From positions 1-64,000 of the forward strand of contig JALSQX010000093.1 in assembly GCA_026985075.1 (NCBI GenBank): DNA of 64,000 nucleotides, read 5' to 3'. The notes beneath the pieces were generated by a model, which did no database searches, was not told where the DNA came from, and saw only the letters and a list, made by a program, of their open reading frames with translations. Made by a program: the position numbers and the translations under genes. Positions 24 to 56,470 of this stretch are shown here, in pieces. Within the stretch, counting starts at the first letter, position 1. Every line of letters starts with the position of its first letter. The DNA is from Blastocatellia bacterium (GTDB lineage Bacteria; Acidobacteriota; Blastocatellia; HR10; J050).

Positions 24-892
24 ATGGCCAACCCCTTAGTCTCAGACGAACTGTGGGAAGTGATCGCGCCCTTGCTGCCTCCTGAGCCCCCAAAGCTCCC
101 GGGGGGTCGGCCGCGCATCCCCAACCGCCGAGTGCTCACCGGCATTCTCTTCGTGCTCAAGTAGTCTCGTCATCGCGCTCGCCCTGCCGTCAACCGTGTG
201 CTCACCGGCATTCTCTTCGTGCTCAAGACCGGGAGCCTCTGGGAGACGCTCCCCCAGGAGATGGGCGGCGGCTCCGGGATGACCGGCTGGCGCAGGCTGC
301 GGGAGTGGCAGCAGGCCGGCGTCTGGCCGAAGCTCCTCCAAGTCCTGCTTGACCGTTTAGGAGAGGCGGATGGCATCGATTGGAGTCGCGCCTTGCTGGA
401 TTCTCAAACGGTGCCCGCCCCGGGGGGGGTGAAGCGACCGGGCCGGATCCGACCAATCGCGGCAAAGCGGGGACGAAGCGCCATCTGCTGGTCGACCGGG
501 AGGGGGCCCCGCTGGCCGCGACTCTCTCGGGGACCGACATCCACGACTCTCAGATGCTGGAAGCCACCTTGGATGCGGTAGAGCCGATCAAGCGGCCGCG
601 GGGTCGGCCCCGCCAGCGGCCCAACAAGCTCCATGCCAACAAGGCCTATGACCCGGCTCGTTGTCGGCAAGCCTGCCGGAGGAGAGGGGTCACCCTCCGC
701 ATTGCCCAAAGAGGCATCGAGTCCTCAGAGCGGTTGGGGAGGCATCGCCCGGTGGTGGAGCGGACGCTGGCCAGGCTCAACCGGTTTCGGCGGTTGCGGG
801 TGCGCTACGAGCGCTTGGCGGAGATCCATGAGGCCTTCCTCCAGCTGGGATGCGCACTCATCGTATGGAACTATGTCCAACGGTTTTGTTAG
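24..892 (+). pseudogene. IS5-type DDE transposase, disrupted
   Basis: Two reading frames together give a complete IS5/IS427-like transposase. The N-terminal part starts at ATG 24 and the C-terminal part ends at 892. DDE residues are visible: D in LLDSQTV, D in SGTDIHDS and E in VERTLARLNRF. The frame changes at an eight-G run (422-429), a place where this group often uses programmed -1 frameshifting, so that shift alone need not be damage. However, a 66-bp tandem duplication (162-227) places an in-frame TAG at 162, so full-length protein cannot be made without readthrough. The left end of the element lies outside the window and no terminal repeats were identified. Confidence 0.85.
132..227. 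repeat. 30-bp direct repeat inside the transposase
   Basis: The 30 bases at 132-161 recur exactly at 198-227, 66 bp apart. The spacing is a multiple of three, so the frame is kept, but the inserted copy brings a TAG stop at 162-164. Confidence 0.9.
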
Positions 893-902
893 GGATTCTA
901 AG

Positions 903-1007
903 TGACGATATTTCGCGATCGCTCACGATATTTCGTGAATGACGTTTCTTATTGAAGATCAACGACGTTCCGTGATTTTCATCTGATACATTCATGATAT
1001 TTCGTGA
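903..1007. promoter_or_regulatory. Upstream activator array (TCACGATATTTCGTGA family)
   Basis: Three copies of a 16-bp inverted repeat lie at 903-918 (TGACGATATTTCGCGA), 923-938 (TCACGATATTTCGTGA, perfect) and 992-1007 (TCATGATATTTCGTGA). A weaker copy is near 961-976. They sit about 100-200 bp upstream of the -24 element at 1107, the usual distance for enhancer sites of NtrC-type activators. A related array lies at 10635-10737 before the second sigma-54 promoter. Confidence 0.7.
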
Positions 1008-1104
1008 ATCATGCTTCTGAGATGGCTTGAGAGGTTATCATCGAATATCGTCTATCTATAAGCATAAAGAGCGGTTAATGATTTTCCTCGTTTTGGTAGT
1101 CTCT

Positions 1105-1122
1105 TCGGCACAGAATTTGCAT
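1105..1122 (+). promoter_or_regulatory. Sigma-54 promoter of the RiPP operon
   Basis: GGCACAGAATTTGCA has GG at 1107-1108 and GC at 1119-1120, with exactly ten bases between, matching the -24/-12 consensus (TGGCAC-N5-TTGC). Predicted transcription start is near 1132, about 30 bases before the ATG at 1164. No competing sigma-70 promoter was evident. Confidence 0.75.
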
Positions 1123-1163
1123 ATTTTGCAGTGGGTTGAGTCAGGTAATAGGGGGAGAAAGGG

Positions 1164-2546
1164 ATGTCTAAGTATAAGCTATCCAACTATAATCATTACA
1201 TTTTCTACCGGAAAGGCAACATGTATCTTATCTACAACGCTATCAGTAATGGGCTGGCGAAATTAGAACCTGAGGTTTACAGGTTGATTAGAAGCGGTGA
1301 GCAAGGACTGGATAAGCTGGAGCGTGATGAGTCAAAGAGGCAGTTACTCGATTCTTTACGTTCGGGGCACATAATTGTAGAGAAAGAATTTGACGAGATC
1401 GAGTTCTTGCGAGCAAAAATGAATATGGGTCGGTTTGGATCAACAGTTCTATCATTAACTATTGTTCCTACGCTCGCTTGCAATCTTAAGTGTGTCTACT
1501 GCTATGAGGGGGTCAAAATAGGTAAGTACATGGACGAATCAATCGAAGACGCGATCACCAACTTTACTGAGAGTCAAATCAGGCGATTTGGCTATCGCGG
1601 ATTAACTGTTAGCTGGTATGGGGGTGAGCCGCTCATGCATTTGAAAGCCATATATTCCTTATCACGCAAACTAATCAATCTCTGTAGACGCAAGCGTGTT
1701 AACTATCAAGCCATGGTTGTCACTAACGGCACAATTTTAAACAAGACGATTGCTAGGAGACTGAAGGCGTGCAAAGTTACCCATATACAAGTTACTATAG
1801 ATGGCCCTAAAGAGACGCACGACGTGAGAAGGCCATTCATATCGAATAATAAGAGCTCGTTTGACACCATCGTCAGGAATGTGGAGCGCGTACTTGGTAT
1901 CCTGCCAGTTCATATTCGCATTAACGTTGATAGGACAAACTATGAGCAAAGTCTAGAGCTGGTGGAGGAGATGAAAAATCGAGGATGGCTTGACGAGTCG
2001 AAAAACTGCCTCTTCTATATCGGTTACACCAGAGAATGGACCTCCGTTTGTAGTAATATTGCTTCGCAGTGTTTTACCATGGAAGAGTTTTCGAAGGCTG
2101 AACTTGAGTTTCAAAAGGAGCTGATATCGCGCGGGTTTCGACTGAGTAACTTATATCCCTCACAATATTCCTATTGTGTTGCCACTTCTCCAGCAGGATT
2201 CGTTATTGATCCTCATGGCGAACTTTATAAGTGTTGGGCAGATGTTGGCAATAGAGAAGCGTATCTTGGAAATGTTAAGGAACCTCTGGAGATGAATGCA
2301 AAATTGTTGGAGTGGTTGAGCTATGAACCGCTCCTCCAATTCCCTGAATGCAGGGTGTGCAAGTTCTTCCCCATCTGTGCCGGTGGGTGCCCGTATGTGG
2401 CACTTAAACAACGAGGCAAGTTTGGGAGGAACTATAACTGTACTCCCTGGAAGATCTTGATGAGGAAGAAGATGGAGGTATTTCTCGAACAACTGGCTGA
2501 GGCCCAATCAACTCAATCTGGAGGTCAAAATGAAATGGCTAGTTGA
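1164..2546 (+). CDS. Radical SAM/SPASM peptide maturase
   Basis: This 460-aa protein probably installs crosslinks on the precursors encoded just downstream. It has an N-terminal region of about 90 residues and then the radical SAM cluster motif CNLKCVYC (C106, C110, C113). A C-terminal SPASM-type Cys-rich region follows (C-V-A-T near 333, CWAD, CRVC, CAGGC, and a final C before TPWK), expected to bind auxiliary iron-sulfur clusters. SPASM enzymes with this layout form Cys thioethers in sactipeptides and ranthipeptides; the exact chemistry here is inference. A strong GGGGGAG ribosome site precedes ATG 1164. The gene overlaps the first precursor by 17 bp, implying coupled translation. Codon use is AT-richer than the housekeeping genes, suggesting transfer. 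Confidence 0.92.
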   Translation: MSKYKLSNYNHYIFYRKGNMYLIYNAISNGLAKLEPEVYRLIRSGEQGLDKLERDESKRQLLDSLRSGHIIVEKEFDEIEFLRAKMNMGRFGSTVLSLTIVPTLACNLKCVYCYEGVKIGKYMDESIEDAITNFTESQIRRFGYRGLTVSWYGGEPLMHLKAIYSLSRKLINLCRRKRVNYQAMVVTNGTILNKTIARRLKACKVTHIQVTIDGPKETHDVRRPFISNNKSSFDTIVRNVERVLGILPVHIRINVDRTNYEQSLELVEEMKNRGWLDESKNCLFYIGYTREWTSVCSNIASQCFTMEEFSKAELEFQKELISRGFRLSNLYPSQYSYCVATSPAGFVIDPHGELYKCWADVGNREAYLGNVKEPLEMNAKLLEWLSYEPLLQFPECRVCKFFPICAGGCPYVALKQRGKFGRNYNCTPWKILMRKKMEVFLEQLAEAQSTQSGGQNEMAS

Positions 2547-2685
2547 ACCCCTAATGGGAGTAAAACTCCTCAGCGAGCCGATCGCCAAGACATGCTCGGG
2601 AGATGCAACTCTAAATCACTGCAGCTGTATTTTTGGTTTGAAGAAATGCGATTGCAATAGAGGGCTAGTTGTTTCGACTGATTAG
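2530..2685 (+). CDS. RiPP precursor peptide 1
   Basis: This 51-aa peptide begins MKWLVEPLMGVK and continues with Cys at 22, 31, 33, 40 and 42 and a Gly-Leu-Val-Val near the end. It is the first of six paralogues sharing a leader of the form M-x-W-(L/I)-(V/I)-E-P-L-x-G-(F/V)-K. Its start lies inside the end of the maturase gene and has a GGAGG site at about 2520. It is the most divergent copy in its middle: the first GGLVV block is replaced by FGLKK. Short length, Cys pattern and position mark it as a maturase substrate. Confidence 0.85.
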   Translation: MKWLVEPLMGVKLLSEPIAKTCSGDATLNHCSCIFGLKKCDCNRGLVVSTD

Positions 2686-2722
2686 TTCTCTCTATCGAGT
2701 GAAATCCTAAGAGGAGGTTGAC

Positions 2723-2887
2723 ATGAATTGGATTGTTGAACCACTTTCGGGGTTTAAGGCATTTGAGCCCATCGCGGGAGACACTTGTGATGGTGGTGGA
2801 ACACTGCATCATTGTCAGAAGAAAGGCGGGCTCATCGTCTGTACGTGTACCGGTGGATTAGTGATTGAAACTAACAGTTCCCACTGA
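2723..2887 (+). CDS. RiPP precursor peptide 2
   Basis: This 54-aa paralogue begins MNWIVEPLSGFK. Then comes a spacer with EPIAGD, the segment C-D-G-G-G-T-L, and the C-terminal part HC.....GGLIVCTCTGGLVI. Cys are at 22, 31, 40 and 42, so the first CxC pair has lost one Cys (C-Q-K instead of C-x-C). It has its own GAGGAGG ribosome site 37 bp after precursor 1. Leader and core regions match the other copies closely. No known precursor family was recognised. Confidence 0.87.
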   Translation: MNWIVEPLSGFKAFEPIAGDTCDGGGTLHHCQKKGGLIVCTCTGGLVIETNSSH

Positions 2888-2932
2888 CTGATCGAACTGA
2901 AGCCCTGAGACCTAAGGAAGGGGGGAGAAACC

Positions 2933-3097
2933 ATGGACTGGATTATTGAACCTATTACTGGATTTATCGGTTTGTTCGAGCCGATAGTCGCCGACCAATG
3001 TAGCGGGGGAGCAGAACTACGAAACCGCACATGCACCGGTGGTCTTCTGGTTTGCGACTGCAGTGGTGGATTAATTCAAAAGCCAAAATCTTTGTAG
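2933..3097 (+). CDS. RiPP precursor peptide 3
   Basis: This 54-aa paralogue begins MDWIIEPITGF. It has a one-residue longer spacer and Cys at 23, 34, 41 and 43. The first Cys of the upstream CxC pair is replaced by Arg (N-R-T-C), while the second GGL block and its C-D-C are kept. A GGGGGGAG ribosome site precedes it. It ends in a basic tail (QKPKSL), unlike its neighbours. Its place between copies 2 and 4 suggests tandem duplication followed by divergence of the core. Confidence 0.86.
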   Translation: MDWIIEPITGFIGLFEPIVADQCSGGAELRNRTCTGGLLVCDCSGGLIQKPKSL

Positions 3098-3400
3098 TGG
3101 CTGGAATCGACTCATGGAGACGCGGGGCAAACTCGTTTTAAGTTCTGCCTTTAACAAAACTGATGACTTGAAGTAGCGACAATTAGCACACCCAAACTGG
3201 TAACATGTTGAACTGTAAGATTTAGTTGTGATTGTCTTAAATGGAAATGAGTGGATTTGATGTCCGACTGAAGGAAGGTCAAGACAAAGTCGCTCTTGCC
3301 CTGGATTGACCGGGACCAGAGACTGAGAGCACAATCCAACCTGTGGTTATTGTACCCGGCCGCTCTGGGAGGAGAGCTGACAGAAAGGAGCAAAGAGACT
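3098..3400. other. Non-coding spacer before precursor 4
   Basis: No gene is supported here. The stretch includes the 48-bp segment 3283-3330 that recurs before precursor 5, and ends with an AAAGGAG ribosome site. I saw no clear terminator or second promoter. It may be a processing or regulatory leader copied together with the precursor gene. Confidence 0.5.
3283..3330 (+). repeat. Duplicated intergenic element, copy A
   Basis: A segment starting GACAAAGTCGCTCTTG lies 71-118 bp before precursor 4. It aligns without gaps to 3696-3743 before precursor 5, with roughly 35 of 48 bases identical. It has no open frame shared by both copies, so it looks like a non-coding part of the duplicated gene unit. 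Confidence 0.75.
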
Positions 3401-3559
3401 ATGGACTGGATCATCGAACCTTTTTCAGGATTTAAAATGTTAAATGTACAACAGCCTGAACCCGAGTGCTCGGGTGATGGAACCCTCAATGTTTGCAAGT
3501 GTAGTCAGGGACTTGTCGTTTGCAACTGCAAGGGCTGCCTGGTTATTAAGCCAGCGTAA
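3401..3559 (+). CDS. RiPP precursor peptide 4
   Basis: This 52-aa paralogue begins MDWIIEPFSGFK. It diverges in the spacer (MLNVQQPEPE instead of the usual EPI.AD) and then has C-S-G-D-G-T-L-N and VCKC..GLVVCNC.GCLVI. Cys are at 23, 32, 34, 41, 43 and an extra one at 46, the most in the family. The start used here is the internal ATG at 3401, because it aligns with all other copies and has an AAAGGAG site; the longer frame from 3296 runs through the intergenic repeat. Confidence 0.87.
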   Translation: MDWIIEPFSGFKMLNVQQPEPECSGDGTLNVCKCSQGLVVCNCKGCLVIKPA

Positions 3560-3695
3560 CTTCTGCTAAATAAGTTGTTCCAAAACCTATCGGCAGCCTT
3601 GAGTATGGCTCGAAAGAGACTACACAATCAGGCCTCCTAGTTAGGGAGAGACCCCGAGGCAAGGGGGTGAAATGAGCTCCAGAGACTATTATTGG

Positions 3696-3743
3696 GACAA
3701 AATCGCTCTTGTCCTGGGATGACCAGAATCGAAACCAGGGAGC
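3696..3743 (+). repeat. Duplicated intergenic element, copy B
   Basis: Partner of 3283-3330, found 76-123 bp before precursor 5 (starting GACAAAATCGCTCTTG). The near-equal distance to the downstream start in both copies supports duplication of the whole spacer plus gene. Confidence 0.75.
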
Positions 3744-3818
3744 GTGAATAATCTTATCGCGCTTTGTCTGTAGTATGTCTGGCCACGTTAAGGAAAGAGT
3801 TAGCAGAAGGAGGAAACA

Positions 3819-3980
3819 ATGGACTGGATTATCGAACCACTCTCAGGGTTTAAAGCTCTTGAGCCGATCAGCGCCGACTCTTGTACAGGTGAGGGCACAA
3901 AGCTCAACCATTGTAGCTGCACTGGGGGACTTGTTGTCTGCAAGTGCAAGGGAGGACTCGTTGTCCCTGGCCAGGAGTAA
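3819..3980 (+). CDS. RiPP precursor peptide 5
   Basis: This 53-aa peptide is closest to the family consensus. It has leader MDWIIEPLSGFK, spacer ALEPISAD, segment C-T-G-E-G-T-K-L-N, then HCSC-TGGLVV-CKC-KGGLVV-PGQE. Cys are at 22, 32, 34, 41 and 43. The C-terminal half is two tandem CxC-x-GGLVV repeats, the clearest core signature in the set. A GGAGG site lies just before ATG 3819. A longer frame that overlaps it in another phase is a shadow. Confidence 0.9.
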   Translation: MDWIIEPLSGFKALEPISADSCTGEGTKLNHCSCTGGLVVCKCKGGLVVPGQE

Positions 3981-4046
3981 GGCGCGAACTTTTGCATTTG
4001 ACATTTCCTGACCACTTGATGGTCGAGGCAAGGAGGGATAAGGATT

Positions 4047-4211
4047 ATGAAGTGGCTTGTGATCCCATTAGCGGATTTTTATACCATGGAGCTTGTGATC
4101 GCCGATAGATGCACTGGCGGTGGCACATTGAGGCATTGTGATTGCACAGGCGGTTTGGTGATTTGTGGTCCGACTCCGAATTCGTTCGTTATCAAAACAA
4201 CGGAGGATTAG
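4047..4211 (+). CDS. RiPP precursor peptide 6, divergent C-terminus
   Basis: This 54-aa paralogue begins MKWLVIPLADF, so it has lost the EP of the leader. It retains IADRCTGGGTLRHCDCTGGLVIC with Cys at 22, 31, 33 and 40. After this the second CxC-GGLVV repeat is replaced by an unrelated tail (GPTPNSFVIKTTED). A good AGGAGGG site precedes it. The tail change may reflect a new product or the first step of decay. Confidence 0.8.
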   Translation: MKWLVIPLADFYTMELVIADRCTGGGTLRHCDCTGGLVICGPTPNSFVIKTTED

Positions 4212-4224
4212 TTTTACAGATTGG

Positions 4225-4374
4225 ATGGATTGTATTATTGGCGAAATCTTATTCTCATTGGGAAGAGCAAGCCTCCTACTGCCTGTGGCGGGGCTCTTGG
4301 TGGAGGTGTTGCTTTGCAAATCACGTCATATTCGTCTCACTGCAGGCAATGGGGCATCTTGCGACTTCTCGTGA
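4225..4374 (+). pseudogene. Possible decayed seventh precursor
   Basis: Right after precursor 6 the frame from ATG 4225 reads MDCIIGE, resembling MDWIIEP, and the DNA ATGGATTGTATTATTG matches the leader start of the other copies. Downstream, a different frame reads TACGGALGGG, similar to the C-x-G-G-G-T-L segment. No single frame carries the full pattern, so if related it has suffered frameshifts. The resemblance is short and could be chance. Confidence 0.3.
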
Positions 4375-4388
4375 AATCACCCTGTATT

Positions 4389-4416
4389 CTGTGGTTATCT
4401 CGTCGGCTAACCACAG
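4389..4416 (+). other. Stem-loop between precursors and downstream genes
   Basis: CTGTGGTTA and TAACCACAG form a perfect 9-bp stem around a 10-base loop. There is no U-run, so it is not a classic terminator. Its position between the precursor genes and the transporter genes would suit an RNA stabiliser that keeps precursor transcripts more abundant; this is inference. Confidence 0.55.
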
Positions 4417-4465
4417 GATGCGTGATGAAGGGGTTATTTTAGAAAACTTGATATGGAGGTTGTAT

Positions 4466-5314
4466 ATGTTCGCGAATTGCTTTTGGCTTGGAATGGTTGG
4501 CTTCGTCCTTTGGGTAGTCCCCTTAGGTTTTTTCTTGGAGGGAAAATCAATGACTGAAATCCAGAGCCAAGTTGTGCAATTGAGAGTAACTCTCATCTCA
4601 TGCGACTGGCAACAAGAAACTTCAGAACTCTCAATGTCAGCGAGAATCATTCAGTTCAAGGAGTTCGGTATCAAGGACAGCGAACGATTAGTTGAACGTT
4701 TGAGAGCAGTATTCCCAATTCAGAACTTAGAGTCTTTCGGATATGGTGAGTTAACCCCGGGTAATCTGCCGAATGAGGTTTGGATGAAAGACGGCATTAT
4801 GACGCAAGTTTTTATTAGACCTGAAGAAGCACAATATTCTGACATGGTAGAAGTTCGCATCACCTTCGATGACATCCGAACGGGAGATTCTTATGTGGAG
4901 CAACTCCCTTTGACTGGGGGCGAGGGCGCCATTGTTTTATTTCAGAGGGGAAATTCGCAAAAGGTCCTGGCACTTCTTCTTTCTCTCATACCTGAAGCGT
5001 CGAAGGCTGAGCGATATCACCTGGAATACAAGACGGATAGATTCACCATCTTTTCACGAGACAGAAGTTGGGTTGAATCAAACGACCAGCAAGAACAGGT
5101 GATATTCCACCAGGCAAAGGTCGTCATACCGGTCCAAGGCGAGGGGGACTTTATCCTTGAGGCTGAGGAAATCATCTATTCAAAAGGAGCTTCCGAGTTG
5201 ATTGGGTGCAAGGCCGTCCTCTTTGATTCTTCGAATGATCGGGTAGTAGAAGGCGAGAAAATCAAACTGACGTTCGCAGATGGATCTATACGGTACGAGA
5301 TCGTGGGCGGATAA
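4466..5314 (+). CDS. Membrane-anchored protein of unknown function
   Basis: About 282 aa. The start at ATG 4466 is chosen because GGAGG lies seven bases upstream; the frame is open further back but that part overlaps the decayed precursor and has no ribosome site. Residues 5-24 (CFWLGMVGFVLWVVPLGFFL) form one membrane segment and the rest looks soluble with many beta-prone stretches. A second start at 4550 (MTEIQSQ) with its own GGAGGG would give a cytosolic 254-aa form. I do not recognise the family. Its place between precursors and the exporter suggests a peptide-binding, processing or export accessory role, but nothing in the sequence proves this. Confidence 0.75.
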   Translation: MFANCFWLGMVGFVLWVVPLGFFLEGKSMTEIQSQVVQLRVTLISCDWQQETSELSMSARIIQFKEFGIKDSERLVERLRAVFPIQNLESFGYGELTPGNLPNEVWMKDGIMTQVFIRPEEAQYSDMVEVRITFDDIRTGDSYVEQLPLTGGEGAIVLFQRGNSQKVLALLLSLIPEASKAERYHLEYKTDRFTIFSRDRSWVESNDQQEQVIFHQAKVVIPVQGEGDFILEAEEIIYSKGASELIGCKAVLFDSSNDRVVEGEKIKLTFADGSIRYEIVGG

Positions 5315-5370
5315 ATCCATAAATTGAGTCATCGCCACCTCGTTCCATGATTTGGCAGGAGACGAGTCGT

Positions 5371-7206
5371 ATGAAATCGTGGTCGATGAAGAATATGAGG
5401 CTGCTTTTGCGCCTCCTTCATTACTTTGTCCCCTTCAAGAAGCATATCACTCTAGGATTCCTTTTTCTTCTCTCAGGCCTGTTTCTCTCTTTGATTCAGC
5501 CAGTCATTTCAATGGCAATCATAGATGAGGCTTTGCTGAAAAAGAATGTAAAGCTGCTTAACGTCCTTGGAGTGGCCTTTCTGGTGGTAGCCATTCTGTC
5601 ATATCTGTTTGGCATGGCCCGGCAGTATTTGTTTGCTGTTATCCAGCAAAAAGCAATGCTCTTGATGAGGAGGGATCTTACTGGACATATCTTGAAGCTT
5701 CCCTTAAGGTTCCACAACTGTCAGAATCCAGGATACCTCCTGTCCAGAGTCGATGCAGACATAGGCAATCTCGCCGGTGTTATGACGGATAGGTATGTTC
5801 AGACGTTCGTTGATCTGCTCACACTCATTGGAGCCGCCTTGATTCTGATCCTACTGAACTGGAAATTGGCCCTCCTATCGCTCGCCGTTCTGCCTTTTTT
5901 TACATGCTCGGTCATCTACTTCGGCGAAAAGATGAGGACCCTTTCCTGGGAGAATCAAGAGCGGCACGCCCTTGTTGCTGCCAGATTGCAGGATCTTTTT
6001 CACTCGATCTTTATAATAAAAGTTTTTGCCCGAGAAGCTGGTGAACTCCGGCTGCTGATGAAAAGTTTGATAAAGTTTGTACGCAGTAATCTGCAAATCA
6101 CAAGACTTAGCTTGCTCTCTAATTTGGTCATGGGGTGTATCGCCACGCTGGCTCCGTTGTCGGTGATCTGGTATGGGGGCTATCTAGTGGTTCATAATCA
6201 GCTCTCCATTGGGAAGCTTTTCGCGTTTAATATGTATCTGGCTTACCTTTTTAACCCGTTGAGAAATATCTATGGTATTGTGCAGTCTATTCAAGCGTCT
6301 CTCGCGTCGCTAGATAGGATCTTCGAGCTTTTTGATCTTCCGGGTGAGGAACCCTCTCCGTCTCCATTGCGCAGGATAGTGAACCGAGAGGAGCTCTCAG
6401 GGTTAATCGAATTCGAAGATGTTACCTTTGCCTACCGGCCTGATCAGGAGGTATTAAAGGGAATCTCGTTTAGAGTAGATCCGCATACCACTGTAGCTCT
6501 TGTGGGCCCAAGTGGCGCTGGCAAGACGACGATCTTTAATCTCATTTTGAGACTTTATAATGCTTATCAGGGACGTATTTTGATCGATGGAATAGATACT
6601 CGAGACATCGACCTGAAGGCGCTGCGAACGCTCATCAGAATGGTTCCTCAAGAGCCCTTCTTGTTCAATAGGAGCCTTAAGGATAATGTGCGCTTTGGGT
6701 CACCAAGAGCATCAGATGAAGAGATTATCCGAAGTTGCACCCAGGCACATGTCGATCAGCTTATCAAACATCTACCCGATGGATATGAATCACAGATCGG
6801 CCGGCAAGGAGCGTTGCTTTCCGGAGGCGAGAAACAAAGAATTTCCATAGCCAGGGCCTTAGTGTCTAATCCGAAAATCCTGCTGTTGGATGAGGCGACC
6901 TCCTTCTTGGATTCGAATACGGAAAAGCTCGTACAGGAGGCGATTCGAGATTCGATGAAAGGTCGGACTTGTTTGGTGATTGCTCACAGACTCTCGACCG
7001 TGCTGAACGCGGATAAGATCATCGTTCTGAATCAAGGAAAAATAGTAGACCAGGGCACGCATGCTGAATTATACTCTCGCTGTTCGCTGTATGCAGAATT
7101 GTGCGATCAACAGTTTCACTCACGGCCTGTAGCGCCCAGCATGAGCCTGGAGATGGCATATGGAGAGCAGGGCACAATCAATTCCCGCAATCAGTCTCAT
7201 CGCTGA
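5371..7206 (+). CDS. ABC exporter (fused membrane and ATPase domains)
   Basis: About 611 aa. The N-terminal half has six predicted membrane segments of the ABC exporter type. The C-terminal ATPase has Walker A GPSGAGKT (about 379-386), signature LSGGEKQR (about 483), Walker B ILLLDEAT and H-loop IAHRLST. There is no N-terminal C39 peptidase domain, so leader removal must be done by another protein. It most likely exports the modified peptides as a homodimer in the inner membrane. Start 5371 follows GGAGACG; an alternative ATG at 5347 adds eight residues. It overlaps the next gene by 47 bp. Confidence 0.9.
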   Translation: MKSWSMKNMRLLLRLLHYFVPFKKHITLGFLFLLSGLFLSLIQPVISMAIIDEALLKKNVKLLNVLGVAFLVVAILSYLFGMARQYLFAVIQQKAMLLMRRDLTGHILKLPLRFHNCQNPGYLLSRVDADIGNLAGVMTDRYVQTFVDLLTLIGAALILILLNWKLALLSLAVLPFFTCSVIYFGEKMRTLSWENQERHALVAARLQDLFHSIFIIKVFAREAGELRLLMKSLIKFVRSNLQITRLSLLSNLVMGCIATLAPLSVIWYGGYLVVHNQLSIGKLFAFNMYLAYLFNPLRNIYGIVQSIQASLASLDRIFELFDLPGEEPSPSPLRRIVNREELSGLIEFEDVTFAYRPDQEVLKGISFRVDPHTTVALVGPSGAGKTTIFNLILRLYNAYQGRILIDGIDTRDIDLKALRTLIRMVPQEPFLFNRSLKDNVRFGSPRASDEEIIRSCTQAHVDQLIKHLPDGYESQIGRQGALLSGGEKQRISIARALVSNPKILLLDEATSFLDSNTEKLVQEAIRDSMKGRTCLVIAHRLSTVLNADKIIVLNQGKIVDQGTHAELYSRCSLYAELCDQQFHSRPVAPSMSLEMAYGEQGTINSRNQSHR

Positions 7207-8662
7207 AAAAGAGTTCCGCCGGAATATCACGACCTTCAAGTTCACCTTCAGCTTCAGCCTGGCTATCATGTTAGTCTCGGTTGGGACTTTCGCCATGTGT
7301 CGAGATTATGAAGCCCGGCTCCAGGATTGTAGCGCCGCAGAGAACCAGATCACTGAAAGCTTGCGGCAGGCTGACATCTTTTCCGCCCTCTCGCCCGGTG
7401 TGGTCAGAGCACCCAGTGTGTTGACCATCTTCCGCTCCGGTCTCGAAGGGACTCTGGGCGATCTCTTCCCCATCAGCATCGGGCAGATTCCAACGTTGCT
7501 CAACGCAGAGCATACATCCAGGGTCAATCCCTTCATTACGCCAAGTCCCTCCCCTGACCTCACGAGGTTGGTTATTGTTATTCTGAGCGTGTTAGCGATG
7601 TTATTCGGTTATGAGGCGATTTCCGGTGAAAAGGAGATGGGAACATTGAAGATGGTTCTCGCACAACCCGTTCCTAGGAGCCACGTCTTGCTCGGCAAGC
7701 TATTGGGTGGACTCAGTTGTCTTGTCGTTCCTTTATCGGGGAGTTTCCTTATTGCGTTGATGATCTCAGAGAGCCAGAGCTTCATCCAATTCGCCGGCAC
7801 TGACTGGATCCGAATATCCCTGATCTTCTTTTGCTCCCTTCTTTTCCTCTCGTCCTTCTATTTGATGGGAATAGTGCTCTCGACGCTCACCCATAGGGCG
7901 TCCGCGACGCTGCTCTCCTGCTTCATGATATGGGTCATACTCATTCTTGTCATCCCTAATCTCGCCCCCTATCTTGGTGCCCGCATGAGGCCGATCACTT
8001 CGAGTCAGGTCATGCTCGACCAGATCACTTCGCTGGATCAGGACTTCAAGCAAAAAGTCGCCAAGTTTGAGGAGCGAGAGGCGACCACCTTTAGTGTAGA
8101 TCTAGGGGCGAATTTTGTGCCCGGCATGGGACTGTATGGATTGTTCAGAGGAGAGACCAGGGTTCAGACGACGAATCAGCCTACGCTCGACTATATGAGA
8201 AAATTCATCGAATATGTAGAGCCACTCCGCCTCCAATATGCGGAGAAGGTCCACAGGCTCTATGAGGCCAGGCTGATGGAGTTAAGAAACCAGGCCCGGC
8301 TGATCGAAAGTCTATCCCGGCTTTCACCGGCCTTTTCGCTCGCCAAAGTGGCCTCCATCCTGGCGGGCACGGATGCTGCCGCTTATCAGCAGTTTTCCCG
8401 TTGCGCGAGGCACCGCCGCGCCCAGTTCATTGCTTATCTGAAGACCCAAAACGCGTTCACTTCCATGAGGTACTTCACGTCCCAATTTGACGGTGGGGAG
8501 GCATTGGATTTCGAGAAAGATGTCCCCGCGTTTCGTTGCCCCCAGGAATCCATTCAAGACGCGATGAGGAGAGCGGGCCTGGACATCGTGCTACTTATTT
8601 TCGAACCGCTGCTGCTGGTTCTCGTCGCTTTAGTGGCCTTCCTCCACTACGACGTCCGGTGA
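7160..8662 (+). CDS. Large ABC-2 type permease 1
   Basis: A 500-aa permease with an N-terminal membrane segment, a long extracytoplasmic region, and a membrane block opening with GYEAISGEKEMGTLKMVL, the conserved ABC-2 helix that contacts the ATPase. A second large soluble insert (about 280-450) and a final C-terminal membrane segment follow. This matches the DUF3526-like/Gld-type permease layout. It starts inside the exporter gene and is followed by a homologous permease 28 bp later. No separate ATPase gene lies in this operon. A role in export or self-protection is likely but unproven. Confidence 0.82.
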   Translation: MESRAQSIPAISLIAEKEFRRNITTFKFTFSFSLAIMLVSVGTFAMCRDYEARLQDCSAAENQITESLRQADIFSALSPGVVRAPSVLTIFRSGLEGTLGDLFPISIGQIPTLLNAEHTSRVNPFITPSPSPDLTRLVIVILSVLAMLFGYEAISGEKEMGTLKMVLAQPVPRSHVLLGKLLGGLSCLVVPLSGSFLIALMISESQSFIQFAGTDWIRISLIFFCSLLFLSSFYLMGIVLSTLTHRASATLLSCFMIWVILILVIPNLAPYLGARMRPITSSQVMLDQITSLDQDFKQKVAKFEEREATTFSVDLGANFVPGMGLYGLFRGETRVQTTNQPTLDYMRKFIEYVEPLRLQYAEKVHRLYEARLMELRNQARLIESLSRLSPAFSLAKVASILAGTDAAAYQQFSRCARHRRAQFIAYLKTQNAFTSMRYFTSQFDGGEALDFEKDVPAFRCPQESIQDAMRRAGLDIVLLIFEPLLLVLVALVAFLHYDVR

Positions 8663-8690
8663 GTATCGATTGATTATGGAGCCGTGAAGG

Positions 8691-10082
8691 ATGTTGTGGA
8701 CGATAGCCAAAAAGGAACTCACACAAAATTTGATGGAGGTGAGATTCTTCCTCATACTGGCCGTAACGGTGCTATTATTTGCCGTCAGTGGAGTCGTTTC
8801 CCTCAGCAGATATTTTGATGCGCTCGAGCGGTACCATCAGCTCGCTCGCGTGGAGATCCAGGAACTTCGCGAAAGTGCGATGAGCCTTCGTCAGCTTTTC
8901 GATCATCAACAAACTCTCTATCTCAAACCTTGTTTGTTGGAATTCCTTATCTCAGGTCGAGGCACCGGCTTATCCGATTCGATACAAATATCTCCTCGCT
9001 TTGTGATCGCCGAGACACTGAGTGTCAAACTCGTGCCTGGTAATCCGTTGATTGAAAGGTTCACTCCCATCGGGTGGATTTTCATCGTCGGCGCGATCTT
9101 GAGCTTTGGAGCCGTGGTGTTCAGCTATGATTCCATCTCAAGAGAGAAAGAAGAGGGGATACTTGCCCTGATGTTGGCAAACCCGGTGAGAAGATCGGAG
9201 ATTCTCCTGGGTAAGTTCCTTGGGATTTATCTGACAATAATCATTCCTCTGTTGGTAGGGGTGATTCTCAGCCTACTGATTGTGGCGACCCGGTTCAGAA
9301 TTGGAGTTCATCCAGAGGATGGAGCCAAGATTGGTCTTGTGCTCCTCATTGCTCTGGTGTATCTTGCGGGCTTCGCGGTGCTGGGAATCATGGTCTCGGC
9401 CCTCACTCATAACTCCTCGAACAGCTTCGTGATATTATTTCTCCTGTGGGCCCTGTTTCTGGTCATCATACCCGAAGCAGGAAACACGGCAGGGAGACTC
9501 CTTCAGCCAACAAAAAATAGCTCACAGCTTCTGACCCTTGCTCAGAAGGCGGTAGAGGAGGTCGACAACAAGTATAAAGATAGAGAATCGGGTGTCGATT
9601 TCAGTCAACCCTTTTCTGAGCGAACGAAAATCTGGGTCGATTTTATTAATGAACGGATGAGGGCTGCCCGGAGGGTCTACGATGATCATTTGCATCGCGC
9701 TCTGGCTCAAGCGGCAACGGCACGGGCGTTCTCTCGCCTGTCACCCGCCTCGACTTTCGACTATGCGGTGGAGAACATCGCCGGCATCGGCCTTGAGCGC
9801 ACCCAGCTCTTCTTGGAATCGGTCAGGTCATACCGGAGAGCCCTTCTACAGTTTATCGTTGACCGGGATAGAATGGACCCCGAGAGTCCTCATCTTCTCT
9901 TCTCTTTTTTTCTCTCGAAAAACCCGGTCGATCCTCATGAGATTCCTCTGTTTGACATGAGCGAACCTCGCTTGATTGATTCGATGAGGAAAGCCTTTTT
10001 CGATGTCAGTCTGCTCATGGGGTTTCTTTTCTTTGTTGTGATCGCGGCATATATTGCCTTTGCGCGGTACGATGCACGTTAA
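8691..10082 (+). CDS. Large ABC-2 type permease 2
   Basis: A 463-aa paralogue of the preceding permease with the same order: N-terminal membrane helix (residues 15-35), periplasmic loop, SISREKEEGILALMLANPV coupling segment, four further helices, a large soluble insert rich in charged residues, and a final helix ending FARYDAR. The pair could form a heterodimeric channel. The ATPase partner is not encoded next to it; the nearest stand-alone ABC ATPase in the window is at 63.1 kb. It is the last gene before the IS debris. Confidence 0.82.
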   Translation: MLWTIAKKELTQNLMEVRFFLILAVTVLLFAVSGVVSLSRYFDALERYHQLARVEIQELRESAMSLRQLFDHQQTLYLKPCLLEFLISGRGTGLSDSIQISPRFVIAETLSVKLVPGNPLIERFTPIGWIFIVGAILSFGAVVFSYDSISREKEEGILALMLANPVRRSEILLGKFLGIYLTIIIPLLVGVILSLLIVATRFRIGVHPEDGAKIGLVLLIALVYLAGFAVLGIMVSALTHNSSNSFVILFLLWALFLVIIPEAGNTAGRLLQPTKNSSQLLTLAQKAVEEVDNKYKDRESGVDFSQPFSERTKIWVDFINERMRAARRVYDDHLHRALAQAATARAFSRLSPASTFDYAVENIAGIGLERTQLFLESVRSYRRALLQFIVDRDRMDPESPHLLFSFFLSKNPVDPHEIPLFDMSEPRLIDSMRKAFFDVSLLMGFLFFVVIAAYIAFARYDAR

Positions 10083-10233
10083 GGCAGTTTATGAATCGGG
10101 CCTCTCATCATGAGGGTTCCACGCCTGGTTGGAGAAGGAGGTTCGAGGAAACCCAAGATTGATCCTGAGCGAGCATCGGTGAGATCATAGAACTCATTTC
10201 AAAACCTGCTCTGGTCTGTGATAGAGTGGAGGC

Positions 10234-10497
10234 ATGGGATGGAGACGATTAACGGATGAACAGCGGGAGGAGATCAGCGTTCACCTCCCTCCATATGAGC
10301 CTGGCCCTAAGGGGGGCGGGCCCCGCGTGGATGACCGGCGCTGTTTTGAAGGGGTTCTCTGGATCTGGTGGACGGGGGCGCCCTGGAGCGAGTTGTCCCG
10401 TCGGTATAGCCGTCCCAGCACCGGCTGGCGAAGGTTGATGGAGTGGGAAGAGAAGGGGGGTGGCTCAACCGGTGATGGGCTTTCCTGGCCCCGTTGA
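10234..10497 (+). pseudogene. IS5-type transposase N-terminal remnant
   Basis: This frame encodes only the N-terminal DNA-binding segment of an IS5-family transposase (GWRRLTDEQREEISVHLPP, then RRCFEGVLWIWWTGAPWSELSRRY). It resembles the same part of the element at 24-892. The catalytic DDE part is missing and the sequence joins directly to an unrelated Fis-type DNA-binding tail at about 10500. It is a relic of an insertion plus deletion. Confidence 0.8.
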
Positions 10498-10503
10498 ACG
10501 ACT

Positions 10504-10602
10504 GGCTACAATCAGAGCCGGGCCGCCCAGCTCTTGGGCATCCCCCGCTCGACATTGAGGAGTAAGATGAAGAAGCTGGGGATTGCCCGGAAAGATGCCT
10601 AA
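10504..10602 (+). pseudogene. Fis-type HTH tail of a sigma-54 activator
   Basis: The frame GYNQSRAAQLLGIPRSTLRS followed by KMKKLGIARKDA and TAA is a typical C-terminal HTH_8 domain of NtrC-family enhancer-binding proteins. Only 32 residues remain. The AAA+ and sensor domains are absent because IS sequence lies directly upstream. It sits beside activator-like palindromes and between two sigma-54 promoters, so it is probably the remains of, or a relative of, the regulator of these operons. Confidence 0.75.
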
Positions 10603-10634
10603 TCTGAGCGGAGAACATTCCTCATGCAGGTTGC

Positions 10635-10737
10635 TGACGATATTTCGCCATGGTGATGATATTCGGCCAACGGACTATTTTGTTGTTTGACTACAGGATA
10701 AGCAAAAGCCCAAAGTGAAAATGACGATATAAGGTCA
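10635..10737. promoter_or_regulatory. Upstream activator array of the second sigma-54 operon
   Basis: Related sites occur at 10635-10650 (TGACGATATTTCGCCA), 10654-10669 (TGATGATATTCGGCCA) and 10722-10737 (TGACGATATAAGGTCA). The first shares an exact 14-mer, TGACGATATTTCGC, with position 903. The sites lie about 100-200 bp before the -24 element at 10836, the same geometry as in the first operon. Confidence 0.6.
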
Positions 10738-10833
10738 ACTCTCTCGGACAAAGAAGGTGCACATCAAAATCGTCTCTCTCCGTAACGGGTTGCAGAACGT
10801 GAGGTTGCCATACTGCCGCTGATGACTCCTTGT

Positions 10834-10851
10834 TTGGTACGGTAATTGCAG
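10834..10851 (+). promoter_or_regulatory. Sigma-54 promoter of the second operon
   Basis: TTGGTACGGTAATTGCAG has GG at 10836-10837 and GC at 10848-10849 with ten bases between, a close match to the -24/-12 consensus. The predicted start near 10861 lies about 25 bases before the small exported peptide gene. Confidence 0.75.
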
Positions 10852-10885
10852 TAGGGTGATGGGAAGGTAAAACTCACGCGAGGAG

Positions 10886-11095
10886 GTGCCTAAGAAGTTG
10901 GGCATAAGCGTAGCAACATTTTTTCTGATCGCCCTTAACTTTTTAGTGGTGCTAGCACCATTTGAGGTGCAGGCATCTACTTCAATTCCCATTCCTCCAA
11001 TTCCGATACTCATCCCAGGAACGGTCGTCTCAGTATTTCCGCTTATCTGCCAATGCCCGGGGGATGGTTCCTGTTTCTGTGGCATTGTCTTTTAG
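10886..11095 (+). CDS. Small exported Cys-containing peptide
   Basis: This frame encodes 69 aa. A basic N-region (PKK) and hydrophobic stretch SVATFFLIALNFLVVLA end in VQA, a good signal-peptidase I site. The mature part of about 39 residues is Pro/Ile-rich and finishes CQCPGDGSCFCGIVF with four Cys. GTG 10886 is chosen for the basic N-region, although the GAGGAGG ribosome site overlaps it; TTG 10898 is better spaced but loses the lysines. As the first gene after a sigma-54 promoter it may be a secreted effector or a structural peptide. No family was recognised. Confidence 0.6.
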   Translation: MPKKLGISVATFFLIALNFLVVLAPFEVQASTSIPIPPIPILIPGTVVSVFPLICQCPGDGSCFCGIVF

Positions 11096-11291
11096 GGATT
11101 TCAGATACATGCCCGCGCAGATAAGTGGTGAGCGGGGAGGCGGTGACACGGGGGATCACCATATTGATCGAGTCGCCAGTAGAGCGTTGAGGCTAGCTTC
11201 AGAAACCCGAGAAACGGAACCGCGGGCAGAAGTGATGTTAGGGAGGAGAAACAATAGGCTCTCGAAGAACGTAACACTTACAGCAAAAGCG

Positions 11292-12497
11292 ATGCGATTA
11301 TCCACCTGCACACTGTTCTTGATCTTCACACTCGCATGTGGTGGATTACCAAGCGGTGAATCTCGGCCCAAAAGAAGCTCAGACGGCCCGGCAGAGGCAA
11401 CACCTCCTCCCCCCAGCACGTCTAGAAACATATCGTCTCATCTCAGTACAGAGGCGACTCGATCAGGGGGACGTCATAACAGGGTGCTCTCTCTCCAGCA
11501 TTATCCTCGGCCAAAAGAGCTGGCTGTGCCGAGGAAGGATTTAACCAATGAGGCGTTTGATCGCGTCTTCCTTAAACGTCAGCAGATTCGCTTGCAAAAG
11601 CCGGTGACTGGGATCTTGGCTTTCGTTGGGGATTATCGACAGAACATTTGGCTCTTCGATTACCCAAGCCTGACGCTGCGAAAATATTCCCCCCGTGGTC
11701 GCTGTATCTTAGAACTCACTGGACCTGGCGTCACGAAAAACAAGCAAGATGCCTTTGGCGTTGTGTTCGGACTAGCCGTTGATAGTCAGGGAAGAGTATA
11801 CGTGGCGAATACGGATGGACGTATTGTTGTCCTCACGCCCGAAGGACACTACCTTCGATCTGTTGTGACAAAAGAGATGGGAGTCGTTACGGCGCTGGCC
11901 GTGGACGAGAAGCGAAATACCCTCTATATGTCTGGCACACCAGCCGGCAGGATAGATATAGGTCAGATCGCACATCGGTTCGAGCTCGCAGATTGGAAGC
12001 ACATTGATTCATTTCTCGATGTGCCATCGAAGGTGCGAGCCAGGCACTTGACTTCATATAACTTTGGGTTTCTTGACGTTGATGCTGACGGCGAGGTGTT
12101 TATTGTGCATCAAGTGGTACATGGCCTTTTCAAATATGACCCTGTCTCAAGAAAGCTGGTGAAGTTTCCATGCCGGTCACAATATTACCGGTCTCCACCA
12201 GATTTCTCTACCACCCGAGATATCCACGAGATTTTAAACCGGGAAGGGGAGTGGTCACGCGTAGCCAAGGTTTGGGTCACTGGCCCGCGCGTTATCGTCG
12301 CCATTATGCAATATACCCCATTCAAGTATTTGTTAGAAATTTATGATCTGAATGGTCACCTCGTTGCTACTGATTTGATGACACAATTGACGCCTGTAGG
12401 ACGGGATCAGCAGGGGCGACTCTATTTCTATGATGAAGAACATCCTTCCACTTTGGTCCAATATGGTCTTCGAGAAACCGGCCATGAAGGGGAATAG
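11292..12497 (+). CDS. Beta-propeller (NHL-like) lipoprotein
   Basis: About 401 aa from ATG 11292, with a lipoprotein signal (MRLSTCTLFLIFTLAC, Cys 16 lipidated). A Pro/Ser-rich linker and then blade-like repeats follow, such as FGLAVDSQGRVYVANTDGRIVVLTPEGHYLRSV and FGFLDVDADGEVFIVHQ. These suggest a six-bladed propeller facing the periplasm or cell surface. The frame is open back to 10962, but that part overlaps the small peptide gene. The ribosome site for 11292 is weak, so the start is uncertain. It may act as a binding scaffold for an exported peptide; this rests on operon context only. Confidence 0.75.
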   Translation: MRLSTCTLFLIFTLACGGLPSGESRPKRSSDGPAEATPPPPSTSRNISSHLSTEATRSGGRHNRVLSLQHYPRPKELAVPRKDLTNEAFDRVFLKRQQIRLQKPVTGILAFVGDYRQNIWLFDYPSLTLRKYSPRGRCILELTGPGVTKNKQDAFGVVFGLAVDSQGRVYVANTDGRIVVLTPEGHYLRSVVTKEMGVVTALAVDEKRNTLYMSGTPAGRIDIGQIAHRFELADWKHIDSFLDVPSKVRARHLTSYNFGFLDVDADGEVFIVHQVVHGLFKYDPVSRKLVKFPCRSQYYRSPPDFSTTRDIHEILNREGEWSRVAKVWVTGPRVIVAIMQYTPFKYLLEIYDLNGHLVATDLMTQLTPVGRDQQGRLYFYDEEHPSTLVQYGLRETGHEGE

Positions 12498-13035
12498 GCT
12501 GAGGTCACTGGTCGCATTGTTGTTGGCATTGAACGTTGTCCTACTCTGGCGCTTCTCCGTGCTGAAGCACAGGTTGGCCCAGATGTCGACAGTGAGTGAA
12601 TTCACCGATAGCTTGGCCCGGTATGTGCTGACCCAGCCATTTCGTACGTTGGATGGTCGCCTGATCCAGTTATCGGAGATCCCGGAACCTCTTCTTCTGG
12701 TCTTCATCTTTCGTCCAACCAATTGTCCGCCCTGTCTGCAGGAACTCTCCTTGTACTCGAAAAGGATAGGCCGGGCGAGCGTCTATGGTATTGGGCTGGG
12801 GACCAACGAACAGGAAATGCGACTGTTTCTGCAGGAGTCACCGCTTCAGTTTCCGGTGCTCATAGATGAAGAGGGTTGGCTATCGGGTAGGTTGCCAGAC
12901 GCATGGACGCCTTTCAAGCTGTTGCTTGATCGCGCGGTAGGACGAGTACTCCTGCGCGGTGGACCCAATGCTCATGCCACTGATCAGCAGCGATTCCTCG
13001 ATCGAGTGAATCAGCTGGTCACGACGGAGCCGTAG
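12484..13035 (+). CDS. Membrane-anchored thioredoxin-like protein
   Basis: About 183 aa, with one N-terminal membrane segment (LRSLVALLLALNVVLLWRF) and a periplasmic thioredoxin/AhpC-TSA-like domain. The redox motif is NCPPC near residue 80. ATG 12484 overlaps the lipoprotein stop by 14 bp, indicating coupling. An upstream in-frame ATG at 12430 is possible. In this operon it may oxidise or reduce the Cys of the small exported peptide. The fold is supported by the FIFRPTNCPPCLQEL motif and the later PVLIDEEGWL. Confidence 0.78.
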   Translation: MKGNRLRSLVALLLALNVVLLWRFSVLKHRLAQMSTVSEFTDSLARYVLTQPFRTLDGRLIQLSEIPEPLLLVFIFRPTNCPPCLQELSLYSKRIGRASVYGIGLGTNEQEMRLFLQESPLQFPVLIDEEGWLSGRLPDAWTPFKLLLDRAVGRVLLRGGPNAHATDQQRFLDRVNQLVTTEP

Positions 13036-13037
13036 TC

Positions 13038-14471
13038 ATGCTCAGAGAGCTGATGCGCAAGGAAATTCTCCAGGGAATTCTGAGCTTCAAGTTCGTCGTT
13101 GTCCTGGTCACGAGTGTGGTGTTAATTCTGCTGGCCTTTCTGGTTGGCGTGACCCGCTATCGGATGGAGATGCGCGCCTATCTGGAGGGACAGGCGGCGA
13201 ACAGGGAGCAAATGGAATCAGCCACCGATTGGGCTGATTTAGGACGCGTGGGATTGTATGTGTTTCGTCGGCCGGAATTCATGGCGGTGTTCAGTGGGAG
13301 TAGCATTCCGGCTATTCAGAGCGCCTATATCAGCATCGATGCTCCGCCGCGCTTCGAGGGCAATGCGCAACTCGTAGGATCACTCTCCCTACTCCTGGGG
13401 AAACTCGATTTCCTTGTGGTCGTCGAGGTCGTCTTGAGTCTGTTTGCGCTGTTATTCGCCTATGACGCTATTTGTGGTGAGAAAGAGGCAGGTACGCTGC
13501 GGATGATATTGGCTCATCCTGTGAGTCGAGTCCAAGTGATCCTGGGGAAAATGCTCGGTCGGTATGTGATTTTGAGCGTGCCCTTGGCGATGGCTTTCCT
13601 CATGGGGCTGTTAATCGTTGTTTCTTCTTCAAGGGCTGTACTTGGTGGGGAGGTCGGGACGCGGATATTGTTGGTGTTCTCGTTTTCGCTGGTCTATCTT
13701 CTGGCGTTCTATCTGTTGGGATTGGTGCTGTCGGGACTGAGCGCCCGGTCGTCGATCTCCCTCATCCTGTGCCTGTTTGCCTGGATTTGGTTGACATTTG
13801 TGACTCCTCGTCTGGGCACAGCAGTGGCGGCCCGCTTGCGACCGGCGCCCGCCTACACTCAACTGCAGGCTCAACGCATTCAGCTTGGTCGCCAACGCAT
13901 GCAGGAGGAGACGAGAGAGACCCTCACGCTCTATTCCCAGTGGCAACAGCGGTGGGCGTTGACAGACGAGGCAGCTCGGCTCCAAGCTCAACTGGAATTT
14001 CAACAAAAGTTGGGAGCTCTCCGTCGGCGACTACGTGACAAGTATCAGCGCCAATTCCTCAAACTGTGGGAGGATTATCAACGTCACCTTGAAGCGCAGG
14101 CCAGCTTGGCGGCAGCACTGGCGTGCTTCTCTCCCAGTGCCGCTTATCGACTGTTGATGGCAGAGTTGACGCACACGGGCCAGAGCGATCAAGCCGCTTT
14201 TGTGACGGCGGTGTTGACCTATCATCGGCAGTTCCGCCGTGTGGTGGAGGATATGATCGAGCAGACGCATAGTGAGATGGCCTTTCTGTCGGCCGAGGGG
14301 AATCCACTTCCGGGGCGGAAACCGGATCTCCGTCAACTTCCGCGCTTCATCTACTCAACGGCGCAAGGTCCTAGCAGGTGGCCGTGGATTGACATGGTGG
14401 TCCTCATTCTCGACGCCCTGGTCTTGTTTTTCATCGCCTATGTGGTCTTCCTCCGCTACGATCCACGGTGA
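13038..14471 (+). CDS. Large ABC-2 type permease 3
   Basis: A 477-aa paralogue of the permeases at 7160 and 8691. It starts MLRELMRKEILQGIL with a first helix at about 18-40, the coupling motif AICGEKEAGTLRMILAHPV, four helices, a Gln/Arg-rich insert (about 270-420) and a last helix ending FLRYDPR. It follows the thioredoxin-like gene by 2 bp. Again no ATPase gene is adjacent. The shared permease type ties this operon to the RiPP operon upstream. Confidence 0.82.
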   Translation: MLRELMRKEILQGILSFKFVVVLVTSVVLILLAFLVGVTRYRMEMRAYLEGQAANREQMESATDWADLGRVGLYVFRRPEFMAVFSGSSIPAIQSAYISIDAPPRFEGNAQLVGSLSLLLGKLDFLVVVEVVLSLFALLFAYDAICGEKEAGTLRMILAHPVSRVQVILGKMLGRYVILSVPLAMAFLMGLLIVVSSSRAVLGGEVGTRILLVFSFSLVYLLAFYLLGLVLSGLSARSSISLILCLFAWIWLTFVTPRLGTAVAARLRPAPAYTQLQAQRIQLGRQRMQEETRETLTLYSQWQQRWALTDEAARLQAQLEFQQKLGALRRRLRDKYQRQFLKLWEDYQRHLEAQASLAAALACFSPSAAYRLLMAELTHTGQSDQAAFVTAVLTYHRQFRRVVEDMIEQTHSEMAFLSAEGNPLPGRKPDLRQLPRFIYSTAQGPSRWPWIDMVVLILDALVLFFIAYVVFLRYDPR

Positions 14472-55355: not shown

Positions 55356-55639
55356 TAACTATGGTAGTGAGAAATTAGAAGAAGGAGTCCTGTATAAAAG
55401 CGGCAGACTGAAGAGAAAAAGAGCTGTCAATATCCTGTGCTAATGCTACATTTACCATGATCATCTGCGCCACTTCGTTACAGGAAGTTTAGCGGCTCGT
55501 GCGGATGTTCCCACCGCTTGAGTGGAGACCAGGGAGGAAGAGATGCTCGAAACCACGTTAATTCGTTGATGGCCTAGTAAGGATCCGTGATGCTGGTAGC
55601 CATGGCGGACGTTTGGTATAACACGTATGACTGCTCACC

Positions 55640-56470
55640 AAACTAAGAAGATAAAGCCTCCGATGTTCAATATGGAAATCATAAACCATGCTCACCGGGC
55701 CCAGACCTCGGTGCAGCGTTTTGTTCAACCGGGCTGGAGTGCGGCTCCGATGGCGGAGGCTCCCCAACCGTTGACGAAATGGGCCGTTGAGCTGTTTGAT
55801 GAATGGCATGTTGATGCCATCGTGGCCTTAGAAGTGGTTGATCACGGCCTAGATCTGTTCGATGAGATCTTGGGCGAGGTGTTGTACCATCACCATGACT
55901 TGCCCCTGAGTAAACTTTTTAATGGTCTGAGTGATACAGATATGATTCTAGAGTCGCCGCTGCAGCCGCTCCACGTGGCCGCCTCGGGCCGCCTGTCGAA
56001 AAGTCTGACGTACAATGGTGATATAGGCCCACCGACCATCGGTACAGACCAAGACGGTGTCGGTCAAGTCCGAGCCACAGGCCCACACCATCTCCATCAA
56101 GGCTGTAACCGAGACCAGATTCCAGTGTTCCGAGATCGCCTAATCCCGCTACAAGTGAATCCGCACCATCAGGGTCATGGCCAGCCCTACCACCATCTCT
56201 TGCGCTTTGATCCGCATCTGGTTTGTTGGTGCTCGTCCCACTTCTTGGTACTGCTGGACCGGATATTTGTGCATTGCTTGGCACTATTTCCCAGTCCTCT
56301 TGGATCCGCCTCGTTCCGTGCACTCATCCGTCTCAAAGGCCACCACAATCGTCGGCATCGGACAACTATATGCCAGCAACGCGGCCACCAAAGTAAGACG
56401 ATCTTTAGCTGTCTTCAATCGGTAAAACGGCATCCCTTTGATCTTAGCAAACGTCCAAGATCGCCACACT
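55640..56470 (-). pseudogene. Decayed DDE transposase
   Basis: The minus strand shows pieces of one transposase in several frames: FYRLKTAKDRLTLVAALLAY near the right end, LVCTDGRWAYITIVR in the middle and GPFRQRLGSLRHRSRTPARL near the left end. The last resembles the NTAYIERLNATFRQRLA region of transposases common in Chloroflexota and Acidobacteriota. Stops and frameshifts break it throughout. It separates the Asn-rich gene from the radical SAM gene. Confidence 0.75.

Follow-up and report, generated by a model that had tools for sequence, protein, structure and literature searches.

The gene cluster at positions 1164 to 10082 of the window (the whole 64,000-nt stretch of DNA that was analysed) represents a real, uncharacterised new subfamily of a known kind of Cys-rich SPASM RiPP system. 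In the reading that we favour, and consider reasonably probable, the cluster was acquired horizontally, and its Cys-rich peptides undergo leader-guided crosslinking by a SPASM enzyme and are then exported. From sequences and models, a RiPP-type system is well supported, because an RRE-like maturase, adjacent leader/core peptides and an exporter occur together and the set is conserved in a second genome. The preliminary description had spoken of a candidate new RiPP system; the RiPP type holds up (gene set, second genome), but novelty of kind does not, since the leader aligns to the Clo7bot precursor family TIGR04333, the leader motif is widespread and the Clo7bot gene arrangement is already known.

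The layout is as first described. The SPASM maturase gene is followed by six genes for Cys-rich peptides of 51-54 aa, all of them intact and where they had been placed, and the order and domains of the genes that follow (one for an anchored protein, then one for an ABC exporter that lacks a C39 peptidase, then two for ABC-2 permeases) are borne out. The features are:

24..892, + strand, remnant of a transposase at the contig end, upstream of the cluster (identified by eye)
903..1007, + strand, three palindromic operator-like sites (TGACGATATTTCGCGA at 903, TCACGATATTTCGTGA at 923, TCATGATATTTCGTGA at 992)
1164..2546, + strand, radical SAM/SPASM peptide maturase with an N-terminal RRE-like domain (about residues 1-75)
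2530..2685, + strand, precursor peptide 1 (51 aa, 5 Cys)
2723..2887, + strand, precursor peptide 2 (54 aa, 4 Cys)
2933..3097, + strand, precursor peptide 3 (54 aa, 4 Cys)
3401..3559, + strand, precursor peptide 4 (52 aa, 6 Cys)
3819..3980, + strand, precursor peptide 5 (53 aa, 5 Cys)
4047..4211, + strand, precursor peptide 6 (54 aa, 4 Cys)
4466..5314, + strand, membrane-anchored protein of no family, with a C-terminal domain predicted to be an LptA/LptC-like jellyroll
5347..7206, + strand, MsbA-type ABC exporter, a TMD-NBD fusion with no C39 peptidase
7160..8662, + strand, ABC-2/DUF3526 permease 1
8691..10082, + strand, ABC-2/DUF3526 permease 2
10234..10500, + strand, remnant of a transposase, downstream of the cluster (identified by eye)
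10636..10650, + strand, degenerate operator-like site, the fourth (GACGATATTTCGCCA), ahead of the genes at 10886-14471

The organism's own 5.2 Mb genome holds exactly six copies of the precursor, each of which is found with precursor 5 (E 7e-11 to 6e-18). We take them to be translated genes and not chance ORFs, because a Shine-Dalgarno-like sequence precedes every precursor ATG and pairwise dN/dS values among them are 0.14-0.65, or dS is saturated. Precursor 4 starts at the ATG at 3401, within a mechanical ORF that is longer (3296-3559). A 48-nt repeat stands before precursors 4 and 5 (at 3283 and 3696), and suggests that a unit of about 415 bp was duplicated.

Identity among the paralogues is 54% in the leader and 54% in the core, against 25% in the linker and 19% in the tail, which, as judged from sequence, is the pattern of a leader/core precursor. 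The leader given in the preliminary description, MDWIIEPLSGFK, is exact in precursor 5 only; what the six have in common is M-x-W-[IL]-[IV]-x-P. The core is a doubled nine-residue CxCxxGLxx unit, and precursors 1 to 6 contain 5, 4, 4, 6, 5 and 4 cysteines, respectively. Two of them thus have five cysteines, and therefore purely intramolecular disulfides cannot take up every cysteine. Among the matches listed there are 12 homologous precursors, six in the window and six in two Candidatus Aminicenantes genomes (L036 and L037). CxCxxGLxxCxC occurs in five of the 12, and most of the others differ from it by the loss of one or two cysteines. The C-x4-T pattern is present in five of the six window precursors and absent from those of L036 and L037; outside the window there is no obvious conserved acceptor residue, and the Cys positions vary among precursors.

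The paired CxC motifs might alternatively serve as metal ligands, in peptides that act as metallophores or in storage and are exported for metal homeostasis. In keeping with such a role, there is a gene for a thiol-disulfide oxidoreductase-like protein further downstream, at 12430-13035. We consider it quite unlikely, however, because precursors 2, 3 and 6 retain CxC on a single side and no metal transporter or metal regulator is seen among the genes annotated here.

Compared with precursor profiles, as the preliminary description had proposed, the six peptides have no credible NCBIfam or Pfam match, and TIGR04333 does not match the window precursors at E values up to 1. A plasmid search with precursor 5 gave no match, an IMG/VR scan with the precursor profile gave 38 pattern matches and no confirmed one, and searching 142 genomes of the class to which L036 belongs with a profile gave no further relatives. 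The statement that no described precursor family has this leader thus stands as far as NCBIfam and Pfam matches go, but not for the leader itself, which aligns to TIGR04333 and carries a widespread motif. The alignment to TIGR04333, from profile comparison, covers the first 14 leader positions only (E 9e-5), and is partly circular, the regular expression that selected the compared sequences having contained the leader motif. An enrichment count is less biased; here we counted small ORFs that start with M-x(1,2)-[WFY]-[ILV]-x-x-P, contain at least two cysteines and lie within 1.5 kb of maturase relatives. On the same strand near 80 maturase relatives (among the matches listed) there are 0.38 such ORFs per kb, against background densities of 0.014 (far away) and 0.017 (opposite strand) per kb. 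The motif M-x-[WFY]-[ILV]-x-x-P is thus enriched about 25-fold beside maturase relatives in many phyla, with at least one such ORF at 35 of the 80 loci. Four clostridial peptides with the motif were tested, and all match TIGR04333 (1e-6 to 4e-14), three of them above its cut-off. By its sequence, the window leader is one form of this wider motif. The aromatic-I-x-x-P leader of Clo7bot peptides is therefore common to a much broader group of maturases, and provides a search handle for precursors in many phyla.

The maturase matches the Pfam Radical_SAM family (6e-16) and the NCBIfam SPASM model TIGR04085 (4e-16, above cut-off). Its radical SAM motif, CxxxCxYC, comprises C106, C110 and C113, and its SPASM cysteines are C338, C357, C396, C399, C405, C409 and C426; across 51 relatives most of these cysteines are invariant and the rest nearly so. 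The AF2 model has a pLDDT of 93. Residues 4-73, at its N-terminus, comprise three helices in addition to beta strands, the make-up that a winged-helix RRE should have; the topology is beta-beta-beta-helix, and the pLDDT exceeds 90. The model thus suggests an RRE-like domain that is a candidate for leader binding. The thioether synthase CteB (5why) aligns to the whole model (Z 28.5 over 396 residues, model residues 7-442; Z 27.4 for a second CteB row) and also ranks first in Foldseek (1.5e-18). TigE (8vpo) matches full-length as well, N-terminal domain included (Z 23.7, model residues 1-445).

The nearest NCBIfam models are TIGR04334 and TIGR04463, and the maturase scores below the cut-offs of both (318.6 versus 600 bits and 304 versus 525 bits, respectively), as do, by far, its orthologues in L036 and L037. 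Clostridial control maturases score 722, 747 and 590 bits with TIGR04334. In the maturase tree the window, L036 and L037 sequences form one clade (support 100/100); its neighbours are other Acidobacteriota sequences (92/94), and the Clo7bot clade (100/99) is separate from it. Relatives of the maturase are also encoded in Methanosarcina and Methanomicrobiales genomes (L101, L106 and L107), among the matches listed. In five Zixibacteria loci (L058, L066, L067, L063 and L081) a second radical SAM enzyme adjoins the maturase relative; it is of the SPASM type in three and of the B12-binding type in two.

In the crosslinking reading, the N-terminal domain of the maturase would bind all six precursors by their W-[IL]-[IV]-x-P leader, leader binding by such a domain being the general RRE model of RiPP maturases (PMC9413430). 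The enzyme would then install intramolecular crosslinks in the Cys/Gly-rich core, most likely ranthionine-type thioethers that join cysteines to non-alpha carbons, within the doubled CxCxxGLxx unit or close to it. The type of linkage was a matter of inference in the preliminary description, and is so here. We prefer ranthionine to sactionine because PapB-like models lie closer to the maturase sequence than sactisynthase models do, and because published mapping separates sactisynthases from a PapB/CteB/QhpD-like group (PMC11002830). Uncharacterised families aside, the PapB ranthipeptide maturase is the best NCBIfam match of known linkage (5e-33), although the score is under the cut-off of that model (114.6 versus 340), and that for the SCIFF maturase model TIGR03974 is as well (78.6 versus 425 bits).

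Sactionine links, from sulfur to the alpha-carbon, would make the products sactipeptides and not ranthipeptides. The enzyme superfamily is the same, the fold matches of the maturase include SkfB (6efn; Z 21.4), and a Cys-rich core would suit such links. The maturase is nonetheless closer to the PapB and SCIFF maturase models, no sactisynthase model is among its best 25 NCBIfam matches, and the mapping cited above sets the sactisynthases apart, so that we regard sactionines as unlikely. It would be more surprising still if the cysteines stayed free and the aliphatic residues of the GLVV stretch were modified instead, for example by C-C or cyclopropyl formation. GL is conserved in most of the cores, TigE is a full-length fold match, and a SPASM relative is known that makes cyclopropylglycine in Thr-Val-Gly-Gly repeats (PMC11002830); what the precursors of the relatives have in common, however, is cysteines and not a GLVV motif, and we consider this alternative very unlikely.

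Returning to the preferred scheme of crosslinking and export, the peptide would leave the cytoplasm through the ABC exporter, whose periplasmic partner would probably be the anchored, predicted LptC-like protein. The exporter (5347-7206) passes the Pfam cut-offs for ABC_membrane and ABC_tran, and Pfam shows no Peptidase_C39 in it. No leader protease is seen in the cluster, and the leader would be cut off by a protease encoded elsewhere. At a related maturase in another locus (L031, 7928-10765) there are two M16 peptidase-like genes, the first by Pfam and the second by eye, which are candidates for a leader protease; that locus also holds an ABC-2/DUF3526 permease like those of the window. The window permeases carry ABC2_membrane_2 and DUF3526, permease 2 is 28% identical to permease 1, and no ATPase adjoins them in the cluster; they might be immunity factors. 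The product would be a family of diversified secreted peptides, probably used in antagonism or signalling, a function that is a guess from diversification and export.

For the anchored protein the best start is the ATG at 4466, with GGAGG upstream (282 aa). A homologue is encoded in L036 (8901-9710; 27%, 1.5e-14), between precursors and exporter, and the protein was not found in the other 395 genomes of a phylum sample. The model, built from two sequences, has a pLDDT of 71, with 75-89 in the C-terminal domain. In a second-look structural alignment LptH and LptA have Z 10.6 and LptC has Z 9.0, whereas unrelated rows reach at most 6.1. LptC of the LPS pathway is built as an anchor plus a jellyroll. 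The predicted Lpt jellyroll fold of the C-terminal domain is a lead, because Foldseek E values for the Lpt rows are weak (0.016 and up) and no relation to Lpt proteins is seen at the sequence level; a sequence profile search of the PDB gave nothing, and Pfam with the two halves of the protein nothing useful. If the LptC-like partner is real, it hints at how Gram-negative producers move stapled peptides across the envelope.

Close relatives of the precursors occur, among the matches listed, only in the two Aminicenantes genomes. Both L036 (two precursors) and L037 (four) have a maturase 55-58% identical to that of the window beside their homologous precursors, and L036 shares the anchored protein and the exporter (57% identical) too. 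The two differ from the window in precursor number and in having interleaved PF17170 beta-propeller genes; no ABC-2 permeases are seen in their clusters. Six-bladed beta-propeller proteins (PF17170 or homologous to its matches) stand beside maturases in several loci, and are interleaved with precursors in L037:

L036, 4358-5521 and 11532-12662, six-bladed beta-propeller genes
L037, 2253-3389 and 3718-4860, six-bladed beta-propeller genes
L031, 10826-11971, six-bladed beta-propeller gene
L104, 6378-7406, six-bladed beta-propeller gene

The Clo7bot system (TIGR04333 peptides, TIGR04334 maturase) resembles the window in its single SPASM maturase, its several tandem Cys-rich precursors with the leader M-x-[aromatic]-I-x-x-P, and its nearby ABC exporter; L057, L061 and L072 show this arrangement of a single maturase and multiple paralogous Cys-rich precursors. 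The window differs in its separate maturase clade, in a maturase score far below the cut-off (318 versus 600 bits), in the lack of a TIGR04333 match, in a CxCxxGLxxCxC core unlike Clo7bot cores, and in the predicted LptC-like anchored partner. TIGR04463 maturases are similar full-length enzymes, below whose cut-off the window maturase falls. With the ranthipeptides (PapB/freyrasin; CteB/thermocellin, SCIFF) the window shares a CteB-like full-length fold, a leader-binding-like N-terminal domain and a Cys-rich core; unlike them it has neither the CX3D/E pattern nor a SCIFF core, and its PapB and SCIFF model scores are far below the cut-offs. No description of this system was found among titles of the literature on Acidobacteria and RiPPs, and no mention of Clo7bot in the literature searched. 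The window thus ties an uncharacterised branch of SPASM maturases to six natural core variants, from which leader and crosslink rules may be read with one enzyme.

The 14-base palindrome core ACGATATTTCGTGA, with at most one mismatch, has three sites in the 5.2 Mb genome, all of them at 903-1007, while its reversed control pattern has none. A distinct Acidobacteriota/Aminicenantes RiPP class, defined by a stapled doubled CxCxxGLxx core, LptC-like plus MsbA-type export and a cluster-specific operator, is a tentative possibility. With at most one mismatch, GACGATATTTCGCSA occurs in the genome only at 904 and 10636, and this shared type of site hints that the genes at 10886-14471 may be co-regulated with the cluster. 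Besides a secreted-looking Cys-containing peptide of 69 aa, these genes encode a protein of the NHL/beta-propeller type and a TlpA/ResA-like thioredoxin; a third DUF3526 permease encoded there is a paralogue of the two in the cluster. An Rfam scan of 850-10900 gave nothing.

GC content is 0.44-0.48 from maturase to exporter, against 0.58 in the housekeeping region, and one other family member sampled contains no maturase relative at E 1e-40. Together with the transposase/IS remnants on the flanks, these features make horizontal acquisition of the cluster likely. Binning contamination is unlikely, since the same contig runs on into housekeeping genes such as sucC. The transposase remnants on both sides and the contig end could also point to a decayed, non-functional remnant between IS elements, but none of the ORFs from 1164 to 10082 is broken, no catalytic cysteine is missing and purifying selection acts on the precursors, which leaves decay highly improbable.

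A second, separate RiPP-like locus lies at 54387-57753 of the window. It encodes a 322 aa protein with the C-terminus TGVVVNAYANVNVVANANAVTNANG, which resembles polytheonamide-type proteusin cores; the next gene encodes a YydG-like radical SAM peptide epimerase, whose match to TIGR04078 (3.4e-26) is below the cut-off. After the epimerase come two small membrane proteins, and a PmtA-like ABC ATPase is encoded at 63091.
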